A DNA stretch of 32,879 nt from Longimicrobium sp. GTDB taxonomy: Bacteria > Gemmatimonadota > Gemmatimonadetes > Longimicrobiales > Longimicrobiaceae. The translations under genes were made by a program, and so were the position numbers. The DNA lies in NCBI GenBank assembly GCA_036389795.1, contig DASVWD010000016.1, forward strand, positions 1-32,879. Reading direction: 5' to 3'. The first letter of the stretch is position 1. Each line of letters opens with the position of its first letter. Under the pieces are notes generated by a model. It saw only the letters and a program-made list of their open reading frames with translations, searched no databases and was not told the DNA's origin. This document shows, one piece after another, positions 5,816 to 32,877 of the stretch.

Positions 5816-8800
5816 TTGAAGAAACCACGTACGCAAACGGCGGCCCTGCTGCTGTGGGCGATGCTGCTGGCGCTGGGCGCCGCCGGCACCGCCCGGGCGC
5901 AGGGCGTCACCACGTCCGCCATCACCGGACGGGTGAGCACGGAGGCGGGGGAGCCGGCGGCGGGCGCGCAGGTGACGGCCACCAACACCGCCACCGGCGC
6001 CGTGTCGCGGGCCGTGACGCGCGGCGACGGCCGCTACCTGGTCCCGGGGCTCCAGCCCGGGACCTACAACATCGCGGCCACGCGGCTGGGCTCCACCACG
6101 GCGCGGCAGAACGGCGTGACGCTCACGCTGGGGCAGACCGCCGAGTTCAACTTCACGCTCGCGGCGGCCGCCGTGGCGCTGGAGGGGATCACGGCCACCG
6201 CCGAGCGGAACTCCGTGCTCTCGCGCGAGCACACGGGGGTGACGACCACGGTGAGCGACAGCACGCTGCGGCGCGCGCCCACCATCACCCGCGACCTGCA
6301 GGACTTCACCCGCCTGGTGCCGCAGATCGCGGTGGTGAACACCACCACCGGCGCGGTGAGCGCGGGCGGGCGCAACAACCGCTACAACCAGCTGCAGATC
6401 GACGGCACCGCCAGCAACGACCTCTTCGGCCTCTCGGCGAGCGGCGCCCCCAGCGGCCAGGCCGGCGGCAAGGCGATCACGCTGGAGGCGGTGCAGGAGT
6501 TCCAGGTGGTGCTGGCGCCCTTCGACGTGCGCCAGAACGGCTTCACCGGCGCCAGCGTGAACGCCATCACCAAGAGCGGGACCAACCGCTTCACCGGCAC
6601 CATCTCGGCGTTCCACCGCAACGAGGGCCTCGCCGGGCGCTACCTCACCTCGGCCGACACCTTCTCCAGCTCGCTCGACGAGTTCAAGAACACCGAGATC
6701 GCCGGCTCGTTCGGCGGCCCGATCCTCCGCAACAAGGCGTTCTTCTTCTTCGCGGGCGAGCGCACCGACCGCTCGCAGCCGCCCAACTTCATCGCCGGCG
6801 ACAACCCGGCGCTGGGGGTGACGTCCGCGCAGGCCGAGCAGGTGCGCGCCTTCCTGGAGTCGCTGGGCTACGACGCGGGCGGGGTCTCGGGGCGCACCAT
6901 CGAGCGGGGGAGCACCAACCTGTTCGGCCGGCTCGACGTGAACCTGTCGCAGAACAACCGGCTGACGCTGCGCCACAACTTCATCGACGGCGCACGCGAC
7001 GACTTCGCGAGCGGCTCGCGCTCGTACTACCTGTCGAACGCCGGCTACTCGCAGGTCAACACCACCAACAGCACCCTGCTGCAGCTGAACTCCGGCTTCG
7101 GCGGCGGGTTCTTCAACGAGCTGCGCGTGGGGTGGAACCGGGTGCGCGACCACCGCGACTTCGAGGGCGACCCCTTCCCGCGCGTGGCGGTGACGGTGGC
7201 CTCGGGGACGGTGGTGAACGCGGGGACGGAGAACTTCTCCGGGCGCAACGAGCTGGACCAGGACGCGCTGGAGATCACCAACGACCTGATGTTCTCGCTG
7301 GGGTCGCACAACCTCACGGTGGGCACCAACAACGAGTTCTCCAAGTTCCGCAACCTGTTCGTCCGCAACCCGTTCGGCACCTACACCTTCCAGTCGTTCG
7401 CCGACCTGCAGGCCGGGCGGGCGTCGCGCTACGAGTTCAGCTACCTGGTCCCCGACGTGGACCCCGCCACCCCGGGCGACCAGCCGGGCGAGCCCGAGGC
7501 GCGCTTCAAGGTGAACCGGTACTCGCTGTACGCGCAGGACCGCTGGGACGCGAGCGACAACCTGCAGCTCACCTTCGGGCTGCGCCTCGAGCGGCCCACG
7601 CTCCCCGAGGACCCGGTCTACAACCCGGCCGTCGAGAACCTGTACGGCCGCCGCACCGACAAGGTGGCCAGCGGCTACACGCTGGTGAACCCGCGCTTCG
7701 GCTTCAACTGGGACATCACCGGTGACGGGACCACCCAGCTGCGCGGCGGCGGCGGCACCTTCAGCGGCCGCACCCCGTTCGTGTGGATCTCCAACGCCTA
7801 CGGCAACACGGGGCTGGAGTACGTCCGCTTCACCTGCGACCGCACCAACACCAACAACAACGACGACCCGCCGCCGTTCGTTACCGACCCCACCGCCCAG
7901 CCGCGCGGCTGCGTGACCTCGGCGGGCGTGCCGGTTCCCCCGTCGGCGGCCCCCAACGAGATCAACCTGATCAACCCGAGCTTCAAGATGCCGCAGGTGG
8001 CCCGCTTCGCGCTGGGCATCGACCGGCAGCTGCCGTTCGGGCTGGTGGGCACGCTGGAGGGGCTCTACACCCGGACCATCCACGACGTGCTGTACCAGAA
8101 CCTGCGCGTGCAGCCCGACTCGCTGGGCCGCACGGTGGAGGGGCGCCCGCGCTACCAGACGCGCGGCAACACCCCGGGGCTCGGCGACGTGATCGACATC
8201 ACCAACACCGACAAGGGGTACGCGTACAACCTCACGGCGCAGGTGCAGCGCCCGTTCCGCGACGGGTGGGACTTCTCGCTGGCGTACACGTTCAGCCGCT
8301 CGCGCGACGTGAACCCGGTGACGTCGAGCCAGGCGATCTCGAACTGGCGCTTCAACCTCACCCAGGACGACCCCAACAACCCGGGGCTCGGGGTGGCGGA
8401 CAACGACATCCCGCACCGCATCGTGGGCCAGGTGTCGCGCCGGCTGAACTGGTGGCGGCGCGGCCCCACCGACCTGTCGCTGGTGTACATCGGCCAGAGC
8501 GGGCAGCCCTACTCGTACCGGTACAACGACGACATCAACTTCGACGGCAGCTTCGGCAACGACCTGCTGTACGTGCCGCGCGACGTCAACGACATCCGCT
8601 TCCTGACGGGCGTCGTGGCGGGGCAGACGGTCACCCCGCTGCAGTCGTGGCAGAACCTGAACGACTTCATCAACCGGGTGGAGTGCCTGCGCGAGAACCG
8701 CGGCCAGGTGCTGGAGCGCAACTCCTGCCGCACGCCGTGGCAGAGCCGCTTCGACTTCCGCCTGGCGCAGAACCTCACGCCCACGCGGGGGTCCACGCTG

Positions 8801-9046
8801 CAGGTGACGCTCGACATCCTGAACGTGGCCAACCTGCTCAACAACGAGTGGGGGCTCAGCCAGTTCATCGGCAACCAGGCCGAGAGCCTGCTGGCCCTGG
8901 CCACGGGCACGGGGGTGAACAACCAGCCCGACGCCAACGGCCGCCGCCTGTACCGGGCGTTCGGCGAGCGGCAGGACATCTTCACCACCTCGAACCTGGA
9001 CTCGCGCTACCAGATCCAGCTCGGGGTGCGGTACCTGTTCCAGTAA
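5816..9046 (+). CDS. TonB-dependent receptor with carboxypeptidase-regulatory-like domain
   Basis: This 1076-residue outer-membrane protein likely imports a large or scarce ligand with energy from TonB; the ligand is unknown. A signal peptide (KKPRTQ, then a hydrophobic run ending ARAQ near residue 29) is followed by a carboxypeptidase-regulatory-like beta-sandwich (ITGRVSTEAGEPAAGAQV, about 35-115). After it come a plug (TITRDLQDFTRLVPQ, GGRNNRYNQLQIDG, EFQVVLAPFDVRQNGFTGASVNAITKSGTN) and a beta-barrel ending in GVRYLFQ. I chose the TTG at 5816 because AGAGG precedes it by four bases and KKPR then forms the signal n-region; an in-frame ATG at 5756 would add 20 Pro/Ser-rich residues. It is paralogous to the broken receptor at 29639-32877, and both carry RNSCR-PW before the last strands. 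A strong terminator follows. Confidence 0.93.
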   Translation: MKKPRTQTAALLLWAMLLALGAAGTARAQGVTTSAITGRVSTEAGEPAAGAQVTATNTATGAVSRAVTRGDGRYLVPGLQPGTYNIAATRLGSTTARQNGVTLTLGQTAEFNFTLAAAAVALEGITATAERNSVLSREHTGVTTTVSDSTLRRAPTITRDLQDFTRLVPQIAVVNTTTGAVSAGGRNNRYNQLQIDGTASNDLFGLSASGAPSGQAGGKAITLEAVQEFQVVLAPFDVRQNGFTGASVNAITKSGTNRFTGTISAFHRNEGLAGRYLTSADTFSSSLDEFKNTEIAGSFGGPILRNKAFFFFAGERTDRSQPPNFIAGDNPALGVTSAQAEQVRAFLESLGYDAGGVSGRTIERGSTNLFGRLDVNLSQNNRLTLRHNFIDGARDDFASGSRSYYLSNAGYSQVNTTNSTLLQLNSGFGGGFFNELRVGWNRVRDHRDFEGDPFPRVAVTVASGTVVNAGTENFSGRNELDQDALEITNDLMFSLGSHNLTVGTNNEFSKFRNLFVRNPFGTYTFQSFADLQAGRASRYEFSYLVPDVDPATPGDQPGEPEARFKVNRYSLYAQDRWDASDNLQLTFGLRLERPTLPEDPVYNPAVENLYGRRTDKVASGYTLVNPRFGFNWDITGDGTTQLRGGGGTFSGRTPFVWISNAYGNTGLEYVRFTCDRTNTNNNDDPPPFVTDPTAQPRGCVTSAGVPVPPSAAPNEINLINPSFKMPQVARFALGIDRQLPFGLVGTLEGLYTRTIHDVLYQNLRVQPDSLGRTVEGRPRYQTRGNTPGLGDVIDITNTDKGYAYNLTAQVQRPFRDGWDFSLAYTFSRSRDVNPVTSSQAISNWRFNLTQDDPNNPGLGVADNDIPHRIVGQVSRRLNWWRRGPTDLSLVYIGQSGQPYSYRYNDDINFDGSFGNDLLYVPRDVNDIRFLTGVVAGQTVTPLQSWQNLNDFINRVECLRENRGQVLERNSCRTPWQSRFDFRLAQNLTPTRGSTLQVTLDILNVANLLNNEWGLSQFIGNQAESLLALATGTGVNNQPDANGRRLYRAFGERQDIFTTSNLDSRYQIQLGVRYLFQ

Positions 9047-9070
9047 GCCGCTTTCGCGGTTCGGACGTGG

Positions 9071-9106
9071 CGGAGGGCGGGCAGCGATGCCCGCCCTCCG
9101 TCTTTT
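9071..9106 (+). terminator. Intrinsic terminator of the first TonB-dependent receptor
   Basis: A perfect 12-bp stem pairs CGGAGGGCGGGC (9071-9082) with GCCCGCCCTCCG (9089-9100) around AGCGAT, followed at once by TCTTTT. It lies 25 bases after the stop codon. Confidence 0.93.
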
Positions 9107-9183
9107 AGTGCGAGAGTGCGAGAGTGCGAAGTGCTTCAATCGCAGTTTACTTTCGCACTTTCGCACTCAGCACTTTCGCACTG
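9107..9183. repeat. GTGCGA-type short tandem repeats in inverted arrangement
   Basis: AGTGCGAG units repeat at 9107-9134, and complementary CGCACTTT/CGCACTCA units fill 9151-9183, giving an imperfect hairpin of about 25 bp per arm. A related GTAC-based pattern (CGTACCTCGTACC, CGTACTTTCGTAC) is at 25180-25206. Confidence 0.7.
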
Positions 9184-9190
9184 CGTTTCC

Positions 9191-9336
9191 GGGCGTGTCC
9201 CTCCGCTGCGCTCCGGGCCGGGCTGCGCGCGCGGTAGGGCACGATACGACTGTGCCCAACCGCGCCGGGCCACCGCCGCGACGATACCCCGTGTCGCGGC
9301 GGCGTCCCGGCCCTGTCGGGCGCGCATCCCTCACGC
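9191..9336 (+). repeat. Dispersed mosaic repeat, copy 1 (with 88-base insert)
   Basis: Bases 9191-9228 (38 bp) and 9317-9336 (20 bp) recur exactly, in inverted orientation, at 12443-12480 and 12419-12438. In the other copy the two blocks are 4 bases apart; here 88 bases separate them and include a perfect 10-bp hairpin, CCGCCGCGAC (9273-9282) with GTCGCGGCGG (9293-9302). Nothing here looks like a gene. Confidence 0.8.
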
Positions 9337-9445
9337 GGATTTCGTTGCGCGGAGCGCCTTGGGTCGTAGGGGCGAGCATGCGAGTCCGAGCACAGGTGGC
9401 ATCGGCGCAAGAGGCTGCCTACCGCGCATGGACTGGGCATCCGCC

Positions 9446-9465
9446 GGGCGAGGCATGCCTCGCCC
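9446..9465. repeat. 20-bp perfect palindrome, copy 2
   Basis: Identical to 81-100 and again followed by CTACGAG. It sits between the mosaic repeat and the CTCTCCCG hairpin element, so three repeat families are stacked in this gap. Confidence 0.75.
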
Positions 9466-9496
9466 CTACGAGGATCCCGCTCCCGCACCGGCCGTG

Positions 9497-9557
9497 AAGT
9501 CCACCCTCTCCCGAAGTCGGGAGAGGGTTGCCGCTCCAAGGCGGCGGGTGAGGGCCC
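9497..9557 (+). repeat. CTCTCCCG hairpin element, copy 1
   Basis: A stem of CTCTCCCG and CGGGAGAG with an AAGT loop is followed by GGTTGCCGCTCC, GGCGGCGGGTGAGGGC. The 61-base unit recurs at 23941-24001 with only two clear substitutions. It resembles REP-like hairpins common in GC-rich genomes. Confidence 0.8.
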
Positions 9558-9670
9558 CGCCGCCGCGCCGGTCCACGCACTCACGCACCGGGGTTCGGCC
9601 GCTTGCCGATCGGGCGGCGCGGCGGCATGTTGGCGCCGCGGCGGGAGGGACGTCCACGGCACGAGGAGCG

Positions 9671-11552: not shown

Positions 11553-11600
11553 GCGCGGGGAGCCTGCCCCGCATCCACCCGGAACCCCCCGGAGGCCCCG
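11553..11600 (+). promoter_or_regulatory. Conserved hairpin and ribosome-binding leader of peptide gene 1
   Basis: GCGGGG, AGCCTG, CCCCGC forms a hairpin, followed by CATCCACCC, GAACCCC and a GGAGG 5 bases before the ATG. The same block, with only small indels, precedes the second peptide gene at 11796-11841, so it belongs to the duplicated unit. Confidence 0.65.
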
Positions 11601-11744
11601 ATGCAGAAGCTGTCGCTGAACGTGGAGACGCTGCGCGTGGAGTCGTTCGACGCGTTGCCGGTGGCGGAATTCCTCGACGTCGTCGAAATGACCCGCCCGG
11701 CGCTCTGCGACAACTTCACCATCGTCGGTCCGCGCTGTCCGTAG
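11601..11744 (+). CDS. Short Cys-tail peptide 1 with pinensin-type leader
   Basis: A 47-residue peptide with strong GGAGG upstream. Residues 1-13, MQKLSLNVETLRV, are identical to peptide 2, and with ESF that follows match the leader style of pinensin-family lanthipeptide precursors (a KLxLxxxxLxVESF pattern). The middle is variable; then EMTRP (29-33) is shared and a short tail follows: ALCDNFTIVGPRCP, with two Cys and one Thr. Ribosomally made, modified peptides often show such a constant leader with a variable Cys/Thr-rich tail. No LanB/LanC, LanM, radical-SAM or peptidase/ABC export gene is in the window, so modification is unproven. It may alternatively be an unmodified small protein of a multi-copy family. 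Confidence 0.75.
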   Translation: MQKLSLNVETLRVESFDALPVAEFLDVVEMTRPALCDNFTIVGPRCP

Positions 11745-11795
11745 TCCTTCCGGAGGACGATCGGACCGGATTGCCCCGCGCCCGCTGGTCCGCGT

Positions 11796-11841
11796 GCGCG
11801 GGGAGCCGCCCCGCATCCACCCCGAACCCCTGGAGGCCCCG
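11796..11841 (+). promoter_or_regulatory. Conserved hairpin and ribosome-binding leader of peptide gene 2
   Basis: Second copy of the block at 11553-11600: GCGGGG, AGCCG, CCCCGC hairpin, CATCCACCCC, then TGGAGG five bases before ATG. Conservation outside the coding part suggests either a recent duplication or a functional 5' leader. Confidence 0.65.
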
Positions 11842-11967
11842 ATGCAGAAGCTGTCGCTGAACGTGGAGACGCTGCGCGTGCAGACGTTCGTCGTGTCGCC
11901 GGAGACCCTGGTCGCGGTCGAAATGACCCGCCCGCAGGTCTGTGACCCCTTCACCCTGAGGTGCTGA
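11842..11967 (+). CDS. Short Cys-tail peptide 2 with pinensin-type leader
   Basis: A 41-residue paralogue starting 241 bases after peptide 1. The leader (residues 1-13) is identical in protein and DNA. The middle diverges and is six residues shorter, then EMTRP returns and the tail is QVCDPFTLRC, again C-D-x-F-T followed by R-C. Both tails thus keep Cys, Asp, Phe-Thr and a final Arg-Cys while spacing changes. The stop at 11965 overlaps the GTG at 11961 of the next gene, which suggests translational coupling. The peptide could be a RiPP precursor or a small unmodified peptide; the missing modification genes would have to lie elsewhere. Confidence 0.75.
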   Translation: MQKLSLNVETLRVQTFVVSPETLVAVEMTRPQVCDPFTLRC

Positions 11968-12347
11968 GGGCCTTCCGCGACGCGGTCGGCCGCGTCCGCG
12001 CCCGGAGCGCGCCGGAGTCCATGCGGCTCCGGGTGACGGACGGCGGGTTCGCGCTCCACCGCCCCGGCGGGCCGCCCGCAGCGGTCGAGTGGGCGTCGGT
12101 GGAGCGGATCGTGGCCTGCAAGCGCGACCTGCTCACCGAAGACCGGGTCTGCCTGGACTTCGAGCTGCGGGGCGCGGACTTCGCCTTCACCATCCACGAA
12201 GACGTCCCCGGGTTCCCCGACGTGGCCGCGGCGATGGCGCGCCGCTTCCCGCTGCGCGACCCGGACTGGCTCGCCCACGTGAGGCTCCCGCCGTTCGCGC
12301 CGAACGTGGCGGTGATCTACGAGGCTCCCGGGCCGGGTGGTCCGTAG
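11961..12347 (+). CDS. Uncharacterised 128-residue protein coupled to the Cys-tail peptides
   Basis: The frame starts at a GTG inside the end of peptide 2; an alternative ATG at 12021 with GGAG before it would give 108 residues (MRLRVTDGGF). The protein is soluble, mostly beta-strand by look, with VEWASVERIVACKRDLLTEDRVCLDFEL, then FTIHEDVPGFPDVAAAMARRF, and near the end LPPFAPNVAVIYE. I recall similar small proteins in other bacteria but no named function. It has no signal peptide, membrane segment or catalytic motif. Being coupled to the peptide genes it could be a peptide-binding, immunity-like or regulatory partner; that is inference from position only. Confidence 0.75.
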   Translation: MLRAFRDAVGRVRARSAPESMRLRVTDGGFALHRPGGPPAAVEWASVERIVACKRDLLTEDRVCLDFELRGADFAFTIHEDVPGFPDVAAAMARRFPLRDPDWLAHVRLPPFAPNVAVIYEAPGPGGP

Positions 12348-12498: not shown

Positions 12499-12535
12499 CG
12501 AAGGGCCGGCTCTCCATGCGGGAGCCGGCCCTTCG
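12499..12535 (-). terminator. Terminator hairpin of adenosine deaminase
   Basis: A perfect 14-bp stem, CGAAGGGCCGGCTC with GAGCCGGCCCTTCG, has a 9-base loop and lies 20 bases after the add stop. There is no T tract; strength is inferred from the stem alone. The 128-residue gene on the other strand ends about 150 bases away and may use it too. Confidence 0.65.
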
Positions 12536-15341: not shown

Positions 15342-15743
15342 CTACTTCGAGAACTGCTCGGGGGTCGTCGCGATCTGAGGAAAATCCTTCAGTATGCGGC
15401 TGTCCGAGGTAACCAGCGGCACCCCCAGCTCTTCGGCCAGCGCCACGAACTCGCAGTCGTACGCCGAGCACGTGGAGCGGCGCACCAGGTCGAGCACGCG
15501 CGGCGTTCGGCTGGCGAACTCCCGCCCGTCGACCAGCGCCTCGGCTTGCTGGAAGGCATCGAGCGCTTCGTTGATCGGGAGCAACCCCTTGCGCAGGTAG
15601 AGCGCGAGGACGTTGCGAAACTCGCTGCGCCACAGGAGCGGGACCCACCACTCGGGGTCCCGCTTCAGGACTGCTTCCGCGGCTGGCGTGTGGGGACCCG
15701 GCAAGAAGAGGTAGACGAGCAGGTTGGTGTCCGCGACGATCAC
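15342..15743 (-). CDS. PIN-domain toxin (VapC-type ribonuclease)
   Basis: VapC-like toxins are Mg-dependent RNases that cut tRNA or rRNA and are held inactive by their antitoxin. The 133-residue protein has the four PIN acidic residues: Asp5 (VADTN), Glu41 (RSEFRN), Asp96 (AYDCEF) and Asp114 (TSDSRIL), so it should be active. The subgroup with SAYDCEFVALAEELGVPLVTSD is common in paired systems. It starts with a GTG overlapping the antitoxin stop by four bases (GTGA), the usual coupled arrangement. Confidence 0.93.
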   Translation of the reverse strand: MIVADTNLLVYLFLPGPHTPAAEAVLKRDPEWWVPLLWRSEFRNVLALYLRKGLLPINEALDAFQQAEALVDGREFASRTPRVLDLVRRSTCSAYDCEFVALAEELGVPLVTSDSRILKDFPQIATTPEQFSK

Positions 15744-15982
15744 GGCCGCCCCTCGTCGCGGGCGGCGCGCAGGTCCTCATCGTCGACGAACAGGCCGCCC
15801 ATCCGGCCGCGCAACTCACGGGCGCGCGCGAGGACGCTGGCAGCATCGACGGAAGTGCCCCGCAGCGCGCGCTCGAGACACACGATCGCCTCGCTGTTGA
15901 TGCTGCGCCGGTTCCGCTCGGCGCTCGTCTTGAGCTGCTCGTACAACGCGTCGGGTACGTTCTTGAGTGTCATCGTGGCCAT
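15740..15982 (-). CDS. Ribbon-helix-helix antitoxin (FitA/VapB-like)
   Basis: The 80-residue protein begins MATMTLKNVPDALYEQLK, the strand and first helix of Arc/FitA-type ribbon-helix-helix DNA-binding proteins, followed by NRRSINSEAIVCLERAL. Its C-terminal part (about 45-80) is acidic and probably threads onto the PIN toxin. Such antitoxins repress their own promoter as the toxin complex. GGAGGT lies seven bases before the ATG at 15982; the frame extends upstream from a TTG but without support, and ATG at 15973 is an alternative. It is followed directly by the toxin gene. Confidence 0.92.
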   Translation of the reverse strand: MATMTLKNVPDALYEQLKTSAERNRRSINSEAIVCLERALRGTSVDAASVLARARELRGRMGGLFVDDEDLRAARDEGRP

Positions 15983-25207: not shown

Positions 25208-26017
25208 TTACTCGATCTTCCCCAGCGCCCACGCCGCCGCCCGGCGCACGGTGGGGTCGGCGTCGGCGCCCAGGAGCTGGGCGAGCGCGGGGATGGCGGC
25301 GGGGTCTTCCAGGCGGCCCAGCGCGCGGGCGGCGCTCCGGCGCACGCGCGCCTCCCGGTCGTCCAGGATGCCCAGCAGGGGGCGCGTGGCCTCGCGGCTG
25401 CCCACGTGGCCCAGCGTCCAGGCCGCCCCGCCGCGCAGCTCCGGGTCCTGCTCGTCCAGCAGGTCCACCAGCGGGCCCACGGAGCGCTGGTCCTCGGCGT
25501 GGGCCAGCCCCAGCATGGCGGCCTCGCGGCGGCCGCGGTCGTCGGAGCGCAGGGCCTCCAGCAGCGCGTCGGTGGCCGCGGGGATGCGCAGCCGCCCCAG
25601 CAGCCGCGCCGAGGCGCGCCGCACGCAGGGGTCGGCGTCGGCCAGGCCCTCGCGGAGCGGCGCCACGTCCACCCCCTCCATCCGCCCGTCGAGCACGGCG
25701 AGGACCCGCCGCGTCTCCTCGGCCACCTGCGCCGAGGCGGGGGCGTCTTCCCACTCGCCGCTGCCGAAGCCCCACTGGTTGCCGAAGTTGCGCGTGGCCA
25801 GCTCGCAGAGCACCGGGTTGGCCCCGCGCACCGCCGCCAGCAGCTCGCGCACGCTGGCCTCCTGCTCGGCGCGGGTGACGGTGGCGCGCACGGCGGGCTC
25901 CTCGCCGCGGTGGCCGGGGCGCGGCAGGAGGGTGGCCGGGACCAGGAGAAGGGCGGCGCCGGCCAGGGCGGCGGCCCCCAGGGGGTGCCGCCGCACGAAG
26001 CGTTCGATCCGGTTCAT
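25208..26017 (-). CDS. Membrane-anchored HEAT-repeat protein
   Basis: The 269-residue protein starts with a basic tip and one hydrophobic helix (about 12-32), likely an uncleaved anchor or a signal peptide. After a linker (about 35-110) come five or so HEAT/PBS-lyase-type repeats of about 31 residues, such as DPELRGGAAWTLGHVGSREATRPLLGIL and DPTVRRAAAWALGKIE at the C-terminus. HEAT repeats make a curved binding surface. It begins 22 bases after the M56-HEAT stop with GGAG upstream, so it is the last gene of that operon. Its repeats resemble those of the M56 protein (AAWALG-IE), suggesting a common origin and perhaps a shared partner or direct contact. Confidence 0.88.
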   Translation of the reverse strand: MNRIERFVRRHPLGAAALAGAALLLVPATLLPRPGHRGEEPAVRATVTRAEQEASVRELLAAVRGANPVLCELATRNFGNQWGFGSGEWEDAPASAQVAEETRRVLAVLDGRMEGVDVAPLREGLADADPCVRRASARLLGRLRIPAATDALLEALRSDDRGRREAAMLGLAHAEDQRSVGPLVDLLDEQDPELRGGAAWTLGHVGSREATRPLLGILDDREARVRRSAARALGRLEDPAAIPALAQLLGADADPTVRRAAAWALGKIE

Positions 26018-26039: not shown

Positions 26040-28673
26040 TCAGGGGCGCGGGTCCGGACGGGGATCCGGGCGCGGGTCGGGGCGCGGGTCCGGCTGCGGG
26101 TCGGGAGAGGAGCCGTGCCGGCCGGCCAGCGCCGCGGCGGCCGCCCGGCGCACCTGCGGATCGGAGTCTTCCAGCATCTCGGCGATCACCTGCGCCGAGG
26201 CCTCGCTCCCCACCTGCATCAGGGCCCACAGCGCGGTGGACTTGACCTGCGGGTCCTGGTCGCGCAGCGCCGCCCGGAGCGCGGACACCGAGGCCCCGTC
26301 CTCGATCTGCCCCAGCGCCCAGGCGGCGGTGCGGCGCACGCCCGGGTTCTGGTCGCGCAGGGCGTCCAGCAGCCCCTGCGGGGCCGAGGCCGGCTCGATC
26401 TGCCCCAGCGCCCAGGCCGCCTTGGCGCGCACCCCGGGCGAGGGGTCGCGCAGCGCCGCCGTGAGCGCGGGGACGGCGTCGGGGCTCTCGATCTGCCCCA
26501 GCGCCCACGCCGCCATCTCGCGGATCTCGGCCGAGTCGTCGTCGCGCAGCACGCCGCTGAGACCCGAGACCGCCTCGCGGCTCTCGATCTCGCCGAGCGC
26601 CCACACCGCCTGCTTGCGCACCCGCGGGCTGCCGTCGCGCAGGAGCCCCACCAGCGCGGGCACCGCCTGCGGCGCCTCGATCTGGCCCAGCGCCCAGATC
26701 GCCGTCTCGCGCACCTCGGGCTCGCGGTCGCGCAGCGCCGCGGCGAGCGCGGGGACGGCCTCGGCGCTCTCGATCTGCCCCAGCGCCCAGGCGGCCTGCT
26801 TGCGCGTCCGGGCGTCGCCGTCGCGCAGCGCCTCGGAGAGCGCGGGGACGGCGCGGCGGTCCTCGATCTGCCCCAGCGCCCACACGGCCGTCGCGCGCAC
26901 CTCGGCGTCGGCGTCGCGCATGGCGCGCGCGAGGCCCTCCACCGCCCCTCCGTCCTCGATCTGCCCCAGCGCCCAGGCGGAGGTCCTGCGCACCTCCACG
27001 TCGCGGTCGGAGAGCGCCTCCACCAGCGCGGGGACGGCGCGCGCGTCCTCGATCTGCCCCAGCGCCCAGGCGGCGGTCTTGCGCACCTCGGCGTCGCGGT
27101 CGCCGCGCAGCGCCCGCATCAGCGCCTCCACCGCGCGCGGGTCCTCCAGCGAGCCCAGCGACTGCACCGCCGCGAGGCGCACCTCGCGGTCGGCGTCGCC
27201 CATCGAGCGCACCAGCGCGCCCACGATCCGCGCCTTCGCGTCGCCGCCCTCCTGGGCCTGCGCCGCGCTCACCTGCTGCCGGAGCGCGTCGACGGTGGCG
27301 GCGGCCTGGGGCGAGGTGGGCTCGGCGCCCTCGAGCACCGCCGCCACCCCGGCCAGCGCGTCCGCCGTCACCGCGTTCTCCACCGCGTCCGCCCGCTCCC
27401 GCGCCGCGCCGGTCGACGAGCGGGTGAGGGCGTCCGCGGCCGCCTTGCCCGCGTCCGGGGACCCCTGCTCGCCGTCGAAGGAGAACAGCGAGGAGCCGGG
27501 GACTTCGGACGCGGTGCCGGCCCCGGCGGTGCTGGCCGCGGCGCTCGCCGGGCCGACGGCGGCCAGGAGGGCGGAGAGCGCCAGGGCGCCCACGGCGGTG
27601 AGCGCGGCCTGCGAGCGGCGCACCACGGCCCGGTCGACCCCGGGCTCCAGGATGGCCAGGAGCCGCCCCTCGAAGGTGGAGCGCTGCGCCATCGGCAGGG
27701 CGAGCGCGGCGGGGACGCGGGCGCGGCCCACCGTGCGCACCATCGACAGCAGGTGGTCGGCGTAGGTGGAGGCGCGCGTCCCCGAGCGCAGCACCCAGTC
27801 GTCGCAGCAGCGCTCGGCCTCGGCGCGCAGGTTCTTGAGCGCGATCCAGGAGAGCGGGTTGAACCAGTGCAGCGCGCACACCACCTGCCCCAGCGCCAGC
27901 GTCAGCACGTCGGCGCGGGCGATGTGGGCCAGCTCGTGGGTGAGCACCACCTCGCGCCGCTCCTGCGGCCACTCGTCGGCGCCCATGGGGAGGATCACGA
28001 CGGGGCGCAGGATGCCGAAGGTCATCGGCATCTCGGTCCAGTCGCTCTGGATCAGCCGGATCCCGGTGCGCACGCCGAAGCGCCGCTCCAGCCGGGCGAT
28101 CAGCGAGGTCCACTCGGGGTCGTCGACGCGCTCGCCGCGGCGCGACAGCCACCACACGGTGCCGAAGCCCGTGGCCAGCCGCGCCAGCAGCAGCGCCGTG
28201 CCCACGAGCCAGAGGATCCCCAGCAGCCGCCAGACGTCGACGTCGACGTGGAGCCGGATGACGCCCTCCCGCGGCCCTTCCGCCGGGGCCGTGGTCGGAG
28301 TGCCCGGCGCCGGCGCCGCGGCGGCCGGCGCGCCGAGCGTCGACGGCGTACCCGCGTCGGCGATCGGGGCCGTCGACGCCACGGGCACCTCCGCGACGGG
28401 CGTCGGGCGCGGGGCCACCGTCACCGGCGCGGGGCCGGCGAGCGACGGGAGCACCGGGAGGCGCCAGGGGAGGAAGTGCGAGAAGAGCGGCAGCGACAGC
28501 ACGGCGGCGATGGCCGCCACCCAGACGAAGTGGCGCGCGGCGGCCGACGCGTTGCGCAGGGTCACCGCCAGGAGCGTGGCGGCGCCCAGCAGGAGCGCGG
28601 CCTTCAGGAAGAGCGCCGGGACCGGGTCGGAGCCCAGCACCAGCGTCGAGAGCTGCGGGACGGCGGCGGTCAT
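26040..28673 (-). CDS. BlaR1/MecR1-like M56 metallopeptidase with C-terminal HEAT-repeat array
   Basis: In BlaR1-type systems an M56 zinc protease in the inner membrane responds to an outside signal and causes loss of the BlaI repressor. This 877-residue protein has N-terminal helices (about 17-68), a Pro/Ala-rich loop, another helix near 150-170, and the zinc motif HELAH at 246-250 with a downstream ERCCDDW acidic stretch (287-293). A helix near 356-380 follows. Instead of the penicillin-binding sensor of BlaR1, residues about 480-860 form some 12 HEAT units of 31 residues with a near-constant WALGQIE. The tail is (DPRP)n. The ATG overlaps the stop of the repressor gene by four bases. The sensed signal is unknown; a protein ligand is a fair guess given HEAT repeats. 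Confidence 0.93.
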   Translation of the reverse strand: MTAAVPQLSTLVLGSDPVPALFLKAALLLGAATLLAVTLRNASAAARHFVWVAAIAAVLSLPLFSHFLPWRLPVLPSLAGPAPVTVAPRPTPVAEVPVASTAPIADAGTPSTLGAPAAAAPAPGTPTTAPAEGPREGVIRLHVDVDVWRLLGILWLVGTALLLARLATGFGTVWWLSRRGERVDDPEWTSLIARLERRFGVRTGIRLIQSDWTEMPMTFGILRPVVILPMGADEWPQERREVVLTHELAHIARADVLTLALGQVVCALHWFNPLSWIALKNLRAEAERCCDDWVLRSGTRASTYADHLLSMVRTVGRARVPAALALPMAQRSTFEGRLLAILEPGVDRAVVRRSQAALTAVGALALSALLAAVGPASAAASTAGAGTASEVPGSSLFSFDGEQGSPDAGKAAADALTRSSTGAARERADAVENAVTADALAGVAAVLEGAEPTSPQAAATVDALRQQVSAAQAQEGGDAKARIVGALVRSMGDADREVRLAAVQSLGSLEDPRAVEALMRALRGDRDAEVRKTAAWALGQIEDARAVPALVEALSDRDVEVRRTSAWALGQIEDGGAVEGLARAMRDADAEVRATAVWALGQIEDRRAVPALSEALRDGDARTRKQAAWALGQIESAEAVPALAAALRDREPEVRETAIWALGQIEAPQAVPALVGLLRDGSPRVRKQAVWALGEIESREAVSGLSGVLRDDDSAEIREMAAWALGQIESPDAVPALTAALRDPSPGVRAKAAWALGQIEPASAPQGLLDALRDQNPGVRRTAAWALGQIEDGASVSALRAALRDQDPQVKSTALWALMQVGSEASAQVIAEMLEDSDPQVRRAAAAALAGRHGSSPDPQPDPRPDPRPDPRPDPRP
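26120..27230 (-). repeat. 93-bp-period coding repeats of the HEAT array
   Basis: The DNA of the HEAT units repeats about every 93 bases with a conserved core CTCGATCTGCCCCAGCGCCC (plus-strand reading) occurring in most units. It is protein-coding, not a CRISPR or minisatellite, but such identity makes unit gain or loss by recombination likely. Confidence 0.85.
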
Positions 28674-29059
28674 CTCCCCTCCTCGCGGGCGCGGTTGACC
28701 TGCTGGGTGAGGCGCACCAGGGTGTCGCCGTCGACGTGCGTGTCGCTCATCCCCAGGAGCGCGGCCGCCGCCTGCTCGGCCGAGCCGCCGAAGAAGGTGC
28801 GCACCAGGTGCTTGAGCGCCGCGGTGCGGGCGCTGTCCTGCTCCACGGTGGGCTTGTAGACGTAGCGCGGGCCGTCCTGGAGGTGGATCACGTGGCCCTT
28901 GTCCTCCAGCGTGCGCATGGTGGCGCGCACGGCGGAGTAGCTGGGCGGGTCGGGAATGCGCTCGAGGACATCGCCCACCGTGGCGCTGCCCATGGCGTAG
29001 AGCACGTCCATGATCTGGCGCTCGCGGCGCGAGAGGTCGGTCTGCAGCTCGGGACCCAT
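28670..29059 (-). CDS. BlaI/MecI-family transcriptional repressor
   Basis: The 129-residue winged-helix repressor has LSRRERQIMDVLYAMGSATVGDVLERI (helices 1-2), the recognition helix in SYSAVRATMRTLEDKG, and the wing HVIHLQDGPRYVYKP. The C-terminal helices dimerise. Family members bind dyads at their own promoter and are inactivated when the linked M56 protease is triggered. Two dyads overlap the -10 and start region just upstream (29121-29157). I chose the ATG at 29059 because AGGAGA lies four bases upstream and homology begins there; longer frames have no support. It is the first gene of a three-gene operon with the M56-HEAT and HEAT proteins. Confidence 0.95.
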   Translation of the reverse strand: MGPELQTDLSRRERQIMDVLYAMGSATVGDVLERIPDPPSYSAVRATMRTLEDKGHVIHLQDGPRYVYKPTVEQDSARTAALKHLVRTFFGGSAEQAAAALLGMSDTHVDGDTLVRLTQQVNRAREEGR

Positions 29060-29638: not shown

Positions 29639-32600
29639 ATGCGGTTCCGACGTACGCTCCCGGCGCTCTGCCTCGCGCTCGCCTGCGCGCTGGCGGGCGC
29701 CCCGTCCGTGCTGGCGCAGGGCGCCACCACGGGCACCATCCGCGGCCAGGCCACCACCGGCGCCGACAACACGGCCGTCCCCGGCGCGCAGGTGGCGGCG
29801 GTGAGCGCCGAGACCGGCTTCCGGCGCGCGGCGGTGACCGACGCCCGCGGCTTCTACACCATCCCGCTGCTGCCGCCCGGCACCTACCGGGTGGAGGCGC
29901 GCGGCCTGGGCTACGGCCAGGTGACCGTCCCCGACGTCGCCGTGCGCGCCAACCAGGCCTCGACGGTGGACCTGCGGCTGGCGGCCGAGGCGGTGGCGCT
30001 CACCGGGATCACCGCCACGGCGGCGCGCGCGGGGATCGACGCCACCCAGGCCGGCGTGGTGCAGACGGTGACCAGCGAGCAGGTGGAGAACCTCCCCACC
30101 CAGGGGCGGGACTTCACCGACTTCCTGAACCTCTCGCCGCTGGTGAGCCCGGCGCAGGGGATCGGCACCGGCGGGCAGTTCTCGGTGGCGGGGGCGCGCA
30201 CCTCGGCGACCAACGTGCAGGTGGACGGCGCCGACGCCAACAACCAGTTCTTCGGCGAGAACCGCGGCTCGTCGCGCACCCCGTTCGCCTTCAGCCTGGA
30301 GTCGATCAAGGAGTTCCAGCTGATCACCAACGGCTTCGACGTGGAGTACGGCAGCTACCAGGGCGGGGTGGTGAACGCGGTCACCAAGGGCGGCACCAAC
30401 CAGTTCCGCGGCAACGCCTTCGTCTTCGTGCGCGACCAGTCGCTGACCGGCGACGACTTCACCGGCGTGCCGCCCACCGACTACACCGTGCAGCAGTACG
30501 GCTTCAGCCTGTCGGGCCCGGTGCTGCGCGACCGGCTGCACTTCTTCGTCTCGGTCGACGCGCAGAACAAGAACCAGCCGGTGTACGCGCTGGCGCCCAG
30601 CGTGGTGCAGATCCGCCCCGACACCGTCACGAAGATCGTCAACACCCTGAACGCGCTGGGCTTCCCCGAAGCGCAGTCGACGGTGGGGACGCTCGACCAG
30701 CAGGAGGACAACCTGGTGGTGTTCGGGCGGCTGGACTGGACGATCAGCGACCGGCACCGGCTGACGCTCCGGCAGAACTACTCCGACTTCGAGCAGACCA
30801 ACGACCGCCTGAGCACCAGCGGCAACGAGAACAGCACGCGCGGCGGGCCGTTCGTCAACACGGCGTGGTCCACCGTGGGCGAGCTGAACTCGGTGTTCGG
30901 CGACGCCTACAACACCCTGCGCGTGCAGGTCTCCGACGAGGACCGGCCGCGCAACCCCAACACGCCGGGCGGCTACCTCCCGGAGCTGCGCATCGACAAC
31001 GTGCCGTCGTACCGGCTGAACGAGAACGGCGACACGGTGGCCGCCACCACCAGCATCTTCCTGGGCGGCGACGGGGTGATCTTCCGCAACCGGCTGGTGG
31101 AGGACAAGGTCCAGCTGATCGACAACTTCACCTGGAAGGCGGGGCGCACACGCTGAAGGCGGGGACCAACAACATCCTCTCCAGCACCGAGAACACCTTC
31201 TTCCTGCTGGGCAACGGGGCGTACCGCTTCGGCAACCTGGCCGACTTCGCGGCGGGGCGCCCCAACCGCTACACCCGGAACGTGCGCGCCTGCCCCTCGC
31301 CGCTCCAGAACAACGCGGCGGGGCAGCCGGTGATCTGCCCCGAGATGGACGTGCCGGTGGCGAAGTTCCAGGCGCTGGAGTGGAGCCTGTACGCGCAGGA
31401 CGAGTGGCAGGTGACCGACCGCCTGCTGGTGACGCCGGGCGTGCGCTTCGGCGGCACCGACTTCCGCGACGACCCGGCCGAGGTCCCCGCGGTGGAGACG
31501 GCGTTCGGGGTGGCCACGGGGGTCTCGCCCGACCTCACCGGCATCTCGCCCCGCCTCTCCTTCGTCTACGAGTTCCCCGGCGAGCAGGCGCAGGTGGTGC
31601 GCGGCGGGGTGGGGCTGCTGATCGGCCGCGTCCCCAACGTGCTGGTGGGGAACGTCTTCCAGGCGGAGCGCCCGCTGCTGTCGGTGACGTGCACGGGGGC
31701 GAACATCCCCACCTTCAACCTGAATGAGCTGCTGTCCTCGCCCACGGGCGAGAACAACCCGGCGGCGTGCGCGGGGGGCCAGGCGCCCACCGGACGCCCC
31801 GAGGTCGCGGTGTTCGACGAGGACTTCGAGCTGCCGAGGACGCTCAAGGCCAACCTGGGCTTCGAGCGGGCGTTCGCCAGCGGCACGCAGGTGGGGGTGG
31901 ACCTCATCTACAGCCGCACCTGGGAGAACTTCAACGTCTTCGACCTGAACCTGCGGCCGGCGCAGTTCAACCTGGGCGTCGAGGGCCGGCCGGTGTTCGT
32001 GCCGGCGGGCGCGTTCAACCCCGTCTTCACCGCGGGGGCGGACCGCCTGGCGAACAACGCGTTCGACCGCGTGTTCCTGAACGCGTCGGAGGCCGAGGCG
32101 CGCGCCTTCAGCGTGGTGCTGGAGCTGGACCAGCGCGTCCGCGACGTGCTGCAGGTGGGGGCGCGCTACGCCTACACGCGCGCCAGCGACAACAGCTCGT
32201 TCTTCTGCTGCACCAGCGCCGAGGGGTTCAACGTGCCCACCTCGGGGAACCCGAACGACCTGGGCGGCCCGGGCGACGAGGACCGCGGCACCTGGGGCCC
32301 GTCGGACTTCGACCGGCGGCACACCTTCGTGTTCAACGCGCTGTGGGACGCGCCGCTCGGCTTCCGGGTGAGCGGGATCTGGCGCTCGACCTCGGGGACG
32401 CCGTGGACGCCGATCGTGGACGGCGACGTCAACGGCGACGGGGTGGAGAACGACCGCGCCTTCGTGGGTGCCAACCTGCAGTTCACCAACGCCGCCGAGG
32501 CCGCGCAGATGGCGGATCTCCTGGCCGAGCACGAGTGCCTGGCCGGGCAGGAGGGCCGCATCGCGCGGCGCAACAGCTGCCGCAACCCATGGTTCCACTC

Positions 32601-32877
32601 GCTGGACCTGCGGCTGTCGAAGGAGATCCGCACCGTGGGCCGCCAGCGCGCGGAGCTGATCGCCGACGTGTTCAACGTGCTCAACGGGCTGAACGACAAA
32701 TGGGGCCGGCTGGTGGGCGTCTTCGGCGACCAGCGCAACCTGCTGATCGCGCGCGGCTTCACGGCCGCGAACGGGCAGGTGACCTACGAGGTGAACGACC
32801 GCTTCGCCGAGGAGCTGCCGCTGGGCTTCGACCCGTTCCAGTTCCAGGTGCAGCTCGGGCTGCGCTACAGCTTCTGA
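29639..32877 (+). pseudogene. TonB-dependent receptor with one-base frameshift
   Basis: An ATG with GAGG six bases upstream starts a signal peptide (MRFRRTLPALCLALACALAG, ending LAQ), a carboxypeptidase-regulatory-like domain (IRGQATTGADNTAVPGAQV), a plug (FSVAGARTSATNVQVDG, EFQLITNGFDVEYGSYQGG) and barrel strands. The frame stops at 31154-31156 after FTWKAGRTR, but homology resumes at once in the next frame as AHTLKAGTNN and runs to a normal end, LGLRYSF, at 32877. Adding one G to the run at 31141-31144 gives KAGAHTLKAG and a complete protein of about 1079 residues, close to its paralogue at 5816-9046. The rest is intact, so this is a fresh mutation, a phase-variable run or a sequencing error. 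As read, it yields a 505-residue fragment that cannot form the barrel. Confidence 0.9.

Follow-up and report, generated by a model that had tools for sequence, protein, structure and literature searches.

Two adjacent small genes, P1 and P2, in a Longimicrobium sp. genome most probably encode class I lanthipeptide precursors which would be modified in trans, with two rings in each peptide, by a LanB/LanC enzyme set located on another contig; we put the chance that this reading is correct at roughly three in four. The window, that is, the whole stretch of DNA analysed (32,879 nucleotides), is all of contig C16 of the host assembly (7.5 Mb, 285 contigs, 98% complete). The earlier note on this DNA had described peptides of 47 and 41 residues with identical first 13 residues, a common EMTRP and the tails ALCDNFTIVGPRCP (P1) and QVCDPFTLRC (P2), and a re-reading of the open reading frames found all of these as quoted.

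P1 occupies an ATG-initiated open reading frame for a leader and core of 47 aa at 11601-11744 on the forward strand, and P2 (41 aa, also ATG-initiated, 11842-11967, forward strand) is its tandem duplicate, the duplicated unit being approximately 241 bases. A GGAGG ribosome-binding site precedes each gene, at 11591-11595 for P1 and 11832-11836 for P2 (both +). All 39 nucleotides encoding residues 1-13 are identical between the copies, as are 51 of 56 aligned upstream bases and 46 of the 48 leader bases, the leaders being MQKLSLNVETLRVESF in P1 (11601-11648, +) and MQKLSLNVETLRVQTF in P2 (11842-11889, +). Over the 25 aligned codons which follow the leader, pS is 0.36 and pN 0.26; as synonymous sites are also raised, this fits with block replacement, or with gene conversion of the front part, and positive selection on the cores is not claimed.

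The first 16 residues of P1 and P2 follow the pattern K-L-x-L-x4-L-x-V-x-[ST]-F, which a leader HMM found in approximately 140 peptides on 59 contigs of the host genome. The largest groups are on C259 (14), C206 (13), C75 (9) and C112 (8), with single members on 35 contigs. This count derives from 417 kb of the 7.5 Mb (the window included), mostly near model matches, in which every short open reading frame was scored and members were accepted at about 7 bits or more; the list was then edited by eye, with the weaker C106, C259:24131 and C159 peptides added and C259:20117 dropped. At least one of the 140, a 31 aa peptide on C84, is truncated. As a further family precursor on C72, with the GTV motif and a different core, was missed by the model-based list, the count is not exhaustive, and several precursors are situated no more than about 1.5 kb from the ends of C1, C69, C120, C198 and C202 (loci L098, L105, L120, L087 and L116), so that the assembly may be breaking at repeats within the arrays and the family may be larger than counted. 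Two members on C197 (10606 and 11390) are identical at 60 of 60 upstream and 47 of 48 leader bases with largely different cores, and are a case of core replacement.

The assignment of P1 and P2 to this family does not depend on their own contribution to the model, as an HMM rebuilt without the two leaders still recovered them at E 2.6e-6 (P1) and 3.2e-5 (P2) with the database size set to 11,474. Among 11,474 candidate N-termini there were 176 real matches at 8 bits or more (nested starts counted), against 0, 1 and 0 in three shuffled sets and 0 in the reversed set. P1 scored 26.3 and P2 22.8 bits with the HMM that includes their leaders, and 26.6 and 23.1 bits without them; two precursors situated beside enzyme cassettes scored 21.8 and 21.1. 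A search of the host genome with P1 returned 19 matches at E 10, 17 of them besides P1 and P2, and the NCBIfam pinensin model NF038180 gave 117. The earlier note had called for the genome and its relatives to be searched for more such peptides and for LanB/LanC genes; it is from this search that the approximately 140 leader peptides, a single LanB gene and the LanB/LanC cassettes described below have come.

GGAG, GAGG or AGGA lies within 20 bases upstream of the start in 133 of the 140, and k-mer counts against a crude pair-shuffled background gave no further clear promoter or operator motif before these genes, the upstream k-mers being ribosome-binding sites together with apparent coding spill-over from neighbouring precursors. 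The cores are hypervariable and rich in Thr and Cys (12.8 and 14.3%, respectively, after residue 24). A Ser or Thr is found three to seven residues upstream of 93.6% of core Cys, compared with 61.9% (sd 1.5) when residues are shuffled within cores, and the position five before a Cys holds Ser or Thr in 41% of cases versus 18.9% overall, a comparison in which the paralogues are not independent.

The predicted cores of the window pair, TRPALCDNFTIVGPRCP (11691-11741, +) in P1 and TRPQVCDPFTLRC (11926-11964, +) in P2, share with each other and with a homologue in another species (genome G004) the motif T-R-P-x-x-C-D-x-x-T-x(2 or 5)-C. Each of the three sequences holds two Thr-to-Cys pairs, in which the first Thr stands five residues before its Cys and the second is spaced six (P1), three (P2) and three (G004) residues from the last Cys, so that Ser/Thr are placed for pairing with Cys, as in class I precursors. 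The earlier note had remarked that the cores of pinensin-like precursors are usually longer and richer in Ser/Thr; with two Thr and two Cys each, in Thr-to-Cys order, there is no shortage for their size. Since EMTRP supplies the first Thr of these pairs, it probably belongs to the core rather than the leader, the border being a predicted one. The candidate rings would be Thr31-Cys36 and Thr40-Cys46 in P1, and Thr29-Cys34 and Thr38-Cys41 in P2, with a connectivity suggested by residue order. Synonymous codon differences occur at five of the seven kept core residues among P1, P2 and the G004 homologue, and in their alignment no residue is kept between Phe16 and the core; these two observations together indicate that the core is conserved through constraint at the protein level, as judged from three sequences. 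The earlier note had proposed to give up its reading if no homologous peptides were found in relatives or if substitutions showed no such constraint; both were looked for, and the reading survived.

A search with the P1/P2 motif among 298 genomes of the phylum, a sample which evidently left out G004, gave matches in six genomes at E 0.01. Besides P1 and P2, the matches listed are mostly to the leader only, in five genomes belonging to the same family, and one, on C72 of the host, spans motif positions 1-40. A match in G042 (E 0.008, positions 21-40 only) was taken as chance.

It is possible that P1 and P2 are produced and yet are not lanthipeptides, being instead linear peptides, peptides with a single disulphide, or silent side products of the dispersal of the family. 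Three features would fit with this: both peptides fail the pinensin model and lack the GTV motif present in 119 of the 140 siblings, their cores hold just two Cys where the family averages 7.6, and their contig carries no modifying enzyme. However, the leader has kept the family pattern, the ribosome-binding site is intact, the core Thr and Cys are kept in another species despite synonymous change, and a Cys pair alone would leave the retention of both Thr unexplained; we thus regard this alternative as unlikely. Within the favoured lanthipeptide reading, the missing GTV and the lack of a match to NF038180 mean that P1 and P2 could represent an atypical or unprocessed branch of the family.

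The enzymes to which the lanthipeptide reading points are found on contig C225, where consecutive genes encode a LanB protein (PF04738, E 3.5e-46), a separate elimination protein (Lant_dehydr_C, PF14028, E 5.5e-41) and a LanC-like protein (PF05147, E 4.2e-49). The same genome therefore holds both the LanB-type dehydratase and the LanC cyclase of a class I system, and a search with PF04738 found this LanB gene to be the only one in the assembly. The C225 LanC takes its best scores from LanM models, a LanM-like trait which was reported for the LanCs of the pinensin group by Walker et al. (PMC7268733). The earlier note had seen no modifying enzyme near the two peptides and had suggested that enzymes would act in trans, or else that the peptides form a disulphide or act unmodified; whole-assembly searches placed no LanB or LanC domain on C16, which is the entire window, and with the sole LanB on C225 the trans route is supported as the likely one. 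The 15.4 kb of C225 contain no precursor of the leader family, and since the contig ends 335 bases past LanC, neighbouring precursors may be missing from the assembly.

Precursors are usually, although not obligatorily, clustered with their enzymes. P1 and P2 are not, and such clustering is seen only for their siblings in relatives, seven of which carry orthologous cassettes with LanB proteins 57-71% identical to that of the host. LanC has one to three leader peptides around it in G004, G009, G010 and G016, the closest being no more than approximately 0.4 kb away, and the leader is thus common to the cassette-side precursors in all four cassettes with a readable downstream flank. No leader peptide was seen near the cassettes of G001, G003 and G007, where the contig breaks 189 bases after LanC (G001) or inside LanB (G003 and G007). 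Near more distant LanB cassettes, G004 has two weak leader-like peptides (14.8 and 9.3 bits) and G006 has one, with none in the 6.9 kb examined in G013.

Enzyme and leader also occur together at the level of whole genomes. Among 21 genomes of the family, LanB is present in all nine with at least five NF038180 matches and in one of the 12 others (Fisher p 3.4e-5, for genomes which are related and hence not independent), the leader counts of the relatives being NF038180 matches at E 10, a level at which eight of 14 control genomes also match, none above the cut-off; for G003 and G004 the first 150 candidates were scored. The sole exception among the 12 is G006, in which LanB accompanies a single leader match.

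Modification of P1 and P2 by a different enzyme set of the same genome was also considered, as LanC-like domains occur on C28 and C285 as well as on C225. The C28 region (locus L165, 6000-24000) is a separate class II region with two LanM synthetases and several peptides with VAGG or VSGG leaders, and C285 (locus L166, approximately 5896-9594) encodes a LanC-like protein together with a HopA1-family member and a 375-aa product lacking any Pfam match, a set which we take to resemble that of class V lanthipeptides. However, the leaders beside the LanM genes end, by eye, unlike those of P1 and P2, and no leader peptide of at least 5 bits was present in the 18 kb (C28) and 13 kb (C285) read around these sets. 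Moreover, G002, G005 and G008 carry LanC-like genes with 0, 0 and 1 leader matches, so such genes do not track the leaders. The C28 LanM and C285 HopA1-LanC sets are poorer candidates than C225, and that either acts on P1 and P2 is very unlikely.

With regard to export under the C225 reading, the cassette of G009 is flanked by an ABC exporter and an HlyD protein. The best host counterpart of this exporter (74% identical, C206:15236-16978) adjoins the array of 13 precursors on C206, together with an HlyD protein and an S8 peptidase (subtilase); a second, partial counterpart (63% identical) is present on C271, and a subtilase is also found near the more distant cassette of G006. One leader protease and one exporter may serve the whole precursor set, as far as gene neighbourhoods can indicate.

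The pathway which we propose for P1 and P2 would begin with residues 1-16, common to the approximately 140 peptides, acting as the recognition leader to which the C225 LanB, the elimination protein and the LanM-like LanC would bind. The two core Thr would then be dehydrated by the glutamyl-tRNA route of LanB enzymes, the mechanism of which is described as tRNA-dependent (PMC9993889), and two methyllanthionine rings would close from each Thr to the next Cys, with an offset of five residues followed by one of six in P1 or three in P2. The leader would finally be removed and the product exported by the subtilase, HlyD protein and ABC exporter of C206. What the computation itself shows is the leader homology, where enzymes and precursors occur, their adjacency in relatives and the retention of the Thr/Cys core; we infer recognition in trans, the formation and connectivity of the rings, the cleavage site, the export route and the activity of the products.

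Immediately downstream, a gene for a 128-residue protein (11961-12347, +) starts with a GTG which overlaps the TGA of P2; no earlier start codon follows the preceding in-frame stop. AlphaFold predicts a structure with a mean pLDDT of 81.6 and a pTM of 0.74, residues 1-17 being below 50, and PH, PTB and FERM domains account for a good part of the structural matches, the best of which, at Z 6.7, is below the level of a safe match; the protein thus looks PH-like from the predicted fold and this middling list of matches. Foldseek with the model returned nothing at E 0.001 or better, no NCBIfam family matched the sequence at E 1, the best Pfam match was at E 0.29, no solved relative was found at E 1, and the protein bears no enzyme signature.

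The earlier note had viewed this protein as a partner coupled to the peptides and had proposed a co-occurrence check. The overlap with the P2 stop is real, but the check went against the proposal: relatives of the protein are sparse (four of 10 genus genomes and five of 298 sampled phylum genomes, the host counted in both, and one relative among 135 candidate stretches in a contig scan), and no leader peptide of at least 5 bits lies in the 3-8 kb around those of G002, G006 (a weak, partial match), G007, G207, G266 and G268. Conversely, the 12 kb around the P1/P2 homologue of G004 hold no relative of the 128-residue protein (best tblastn E 0.71). A dedicated partner is therefore rejected as the leading view; the protein is probably not one, and its coupling to P2 looks incidental. 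That P1, P2 and this protein work together as a module, such as a peptide with an immunity or carrier protein, is the least credible of the alternatives, for although the overlapping stop and start and the absence of the whole segment between the same neighbours in G009 would be in keeping with it, the sparse relatives without precursors, the G004 homologue without the protein and a predicted PH-like fold without an enzyme signature all speak against it.

G009 keeps udk, a hydrolase and adenosine deaminase in the order and orientation of the window, an additional gene separating udk from the hydrolase, and its hydrolase-deaminase gap is 115 bases, compared with 1,133 in the window, where it holds P1, P2 and the 128-residue protein gene. 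An inverted repeat found by eye immediately beyond the deaminase gene's 3' end (12500-12534), to which a similar one corresponds in G009, marks the right side of this presence/absence difference. Further downstream the order differs, as a rhomboid gene which adjoins the deaminase in the window is more distant from it in G009. At the deaminase loci read in G003, G004, G005, G006 and G008 there is neither the hydrolase nor a match to P1, P2 or the 128-residue protein, and in G003 a different precursor flanks the deaminase on its opposite side. Single precursors appear and disappear between stable genes, here through a gain in the host or a loss in G009.

Other genes of the window are recorded here for completeness. 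At 26043-29059 (-) is a gene in which a BlaR1-type M56 peptidase is joined to an extended HEAT-repeat array; its neighbours, that at 25211-26017 (-) among them, code for a further HEAT-repeat protein and a repressor resembling BlaI (Penicillinase_R). The product of 15342-15982 (-) looks by eye like a PIN-domain protein and could, with its small upstream partner, form a VapBC-type toxin-antitoxin pair. Also by eye, two genes (5861-9046 and 29639-32877, both +) resemble carboxypeptidase-regulatory/TonB-receptor genes, the second of which appears to be split between two frames near 31156-31282 by a frameshift or an assembly error.

The closest known relatives of this system are the pinensins, class I lanthipeptides from Bacteroidota, the gene cluster of which has a split LanB. 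In the host cassette, likewise, the elimination protein is encoded apart from LanB and the LanC is LanM-like, and NF038180 recognises 15 of the 20 family members scanned at E 10 or better; Pfam gave no match for the 20 at E 10. However, the host precursors are far more numerous and are dispersed rather than clustered, the cores of P1 and P2 are short with two Cys, and the host is a Longimicrobium-group genome. Of the earlier note's assignment of the leader to the pinensin kind, the leader type has stood, whereas P1 and P2 themselves miss the NCBIfam model (cut-off 24 bits) at E 1, P1 having no match even at E 10, and they were rejected as members of NF038180.

In its organisation the family resembles the prochlorosins and synechococsins of marine picocyanobacteria, in which one enzyme (ProcM or SyncM) acts on many precursors with a constant leader and a variable core. 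Twenty-nine precursors are given for the prochlorosins (PMC12328550), and 79, with genes scattered over the genome, for SyncM of Synechococcus MIT9509 (PMC10783134). The host shares with these systems its dispersed precursors, constant leader, variable cores and one candidate synthetase set. However, those systems employ a class II LanM on Nif11-type leaders, which the host leader family does not have, and the host combines a class I LanB/LanC set with a short leader and approximately 140 precursors, on all of which the C225 set may act. For L. terrae, three lanthipeptide regions are included in an antiSMASH list (PMC7291104). In the literature searched, which lay mostly outside subscription journals, we found no account of the Longimicrobium repertoire or of a class I system this large.

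We consider it somewhat better than an even chance that one class I LanB/LanC set modifies well over 100 dispersed precursors with hypervariable cores in trans, P1 and P2 included, and that copies arise by tandem duplication, preserve their leader and 5' region, have their core replaced and settle between housekeeping genes. As no enzyme lies near P1 and P2, genome mining confined to the surroundings of modifying enzymes can be expected to overlook precursors of this kind. If the proposal is true, the system would be a class I counterpart of that of the prochlorosins, larger than the 79 precursors of SyncM, and bacteria would have evolved libraries of one enzyme and many substrates on two or more occasions, with LanM in one case and the tRNA-dependent LanB in another. 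A LanB/LanC set which accepts cores of approximately 13 to approximately 100 residues would be valuable for the production of cyclic peptides, and the purpose of such peptide libraries would become testable in a second, unrelated lineage.
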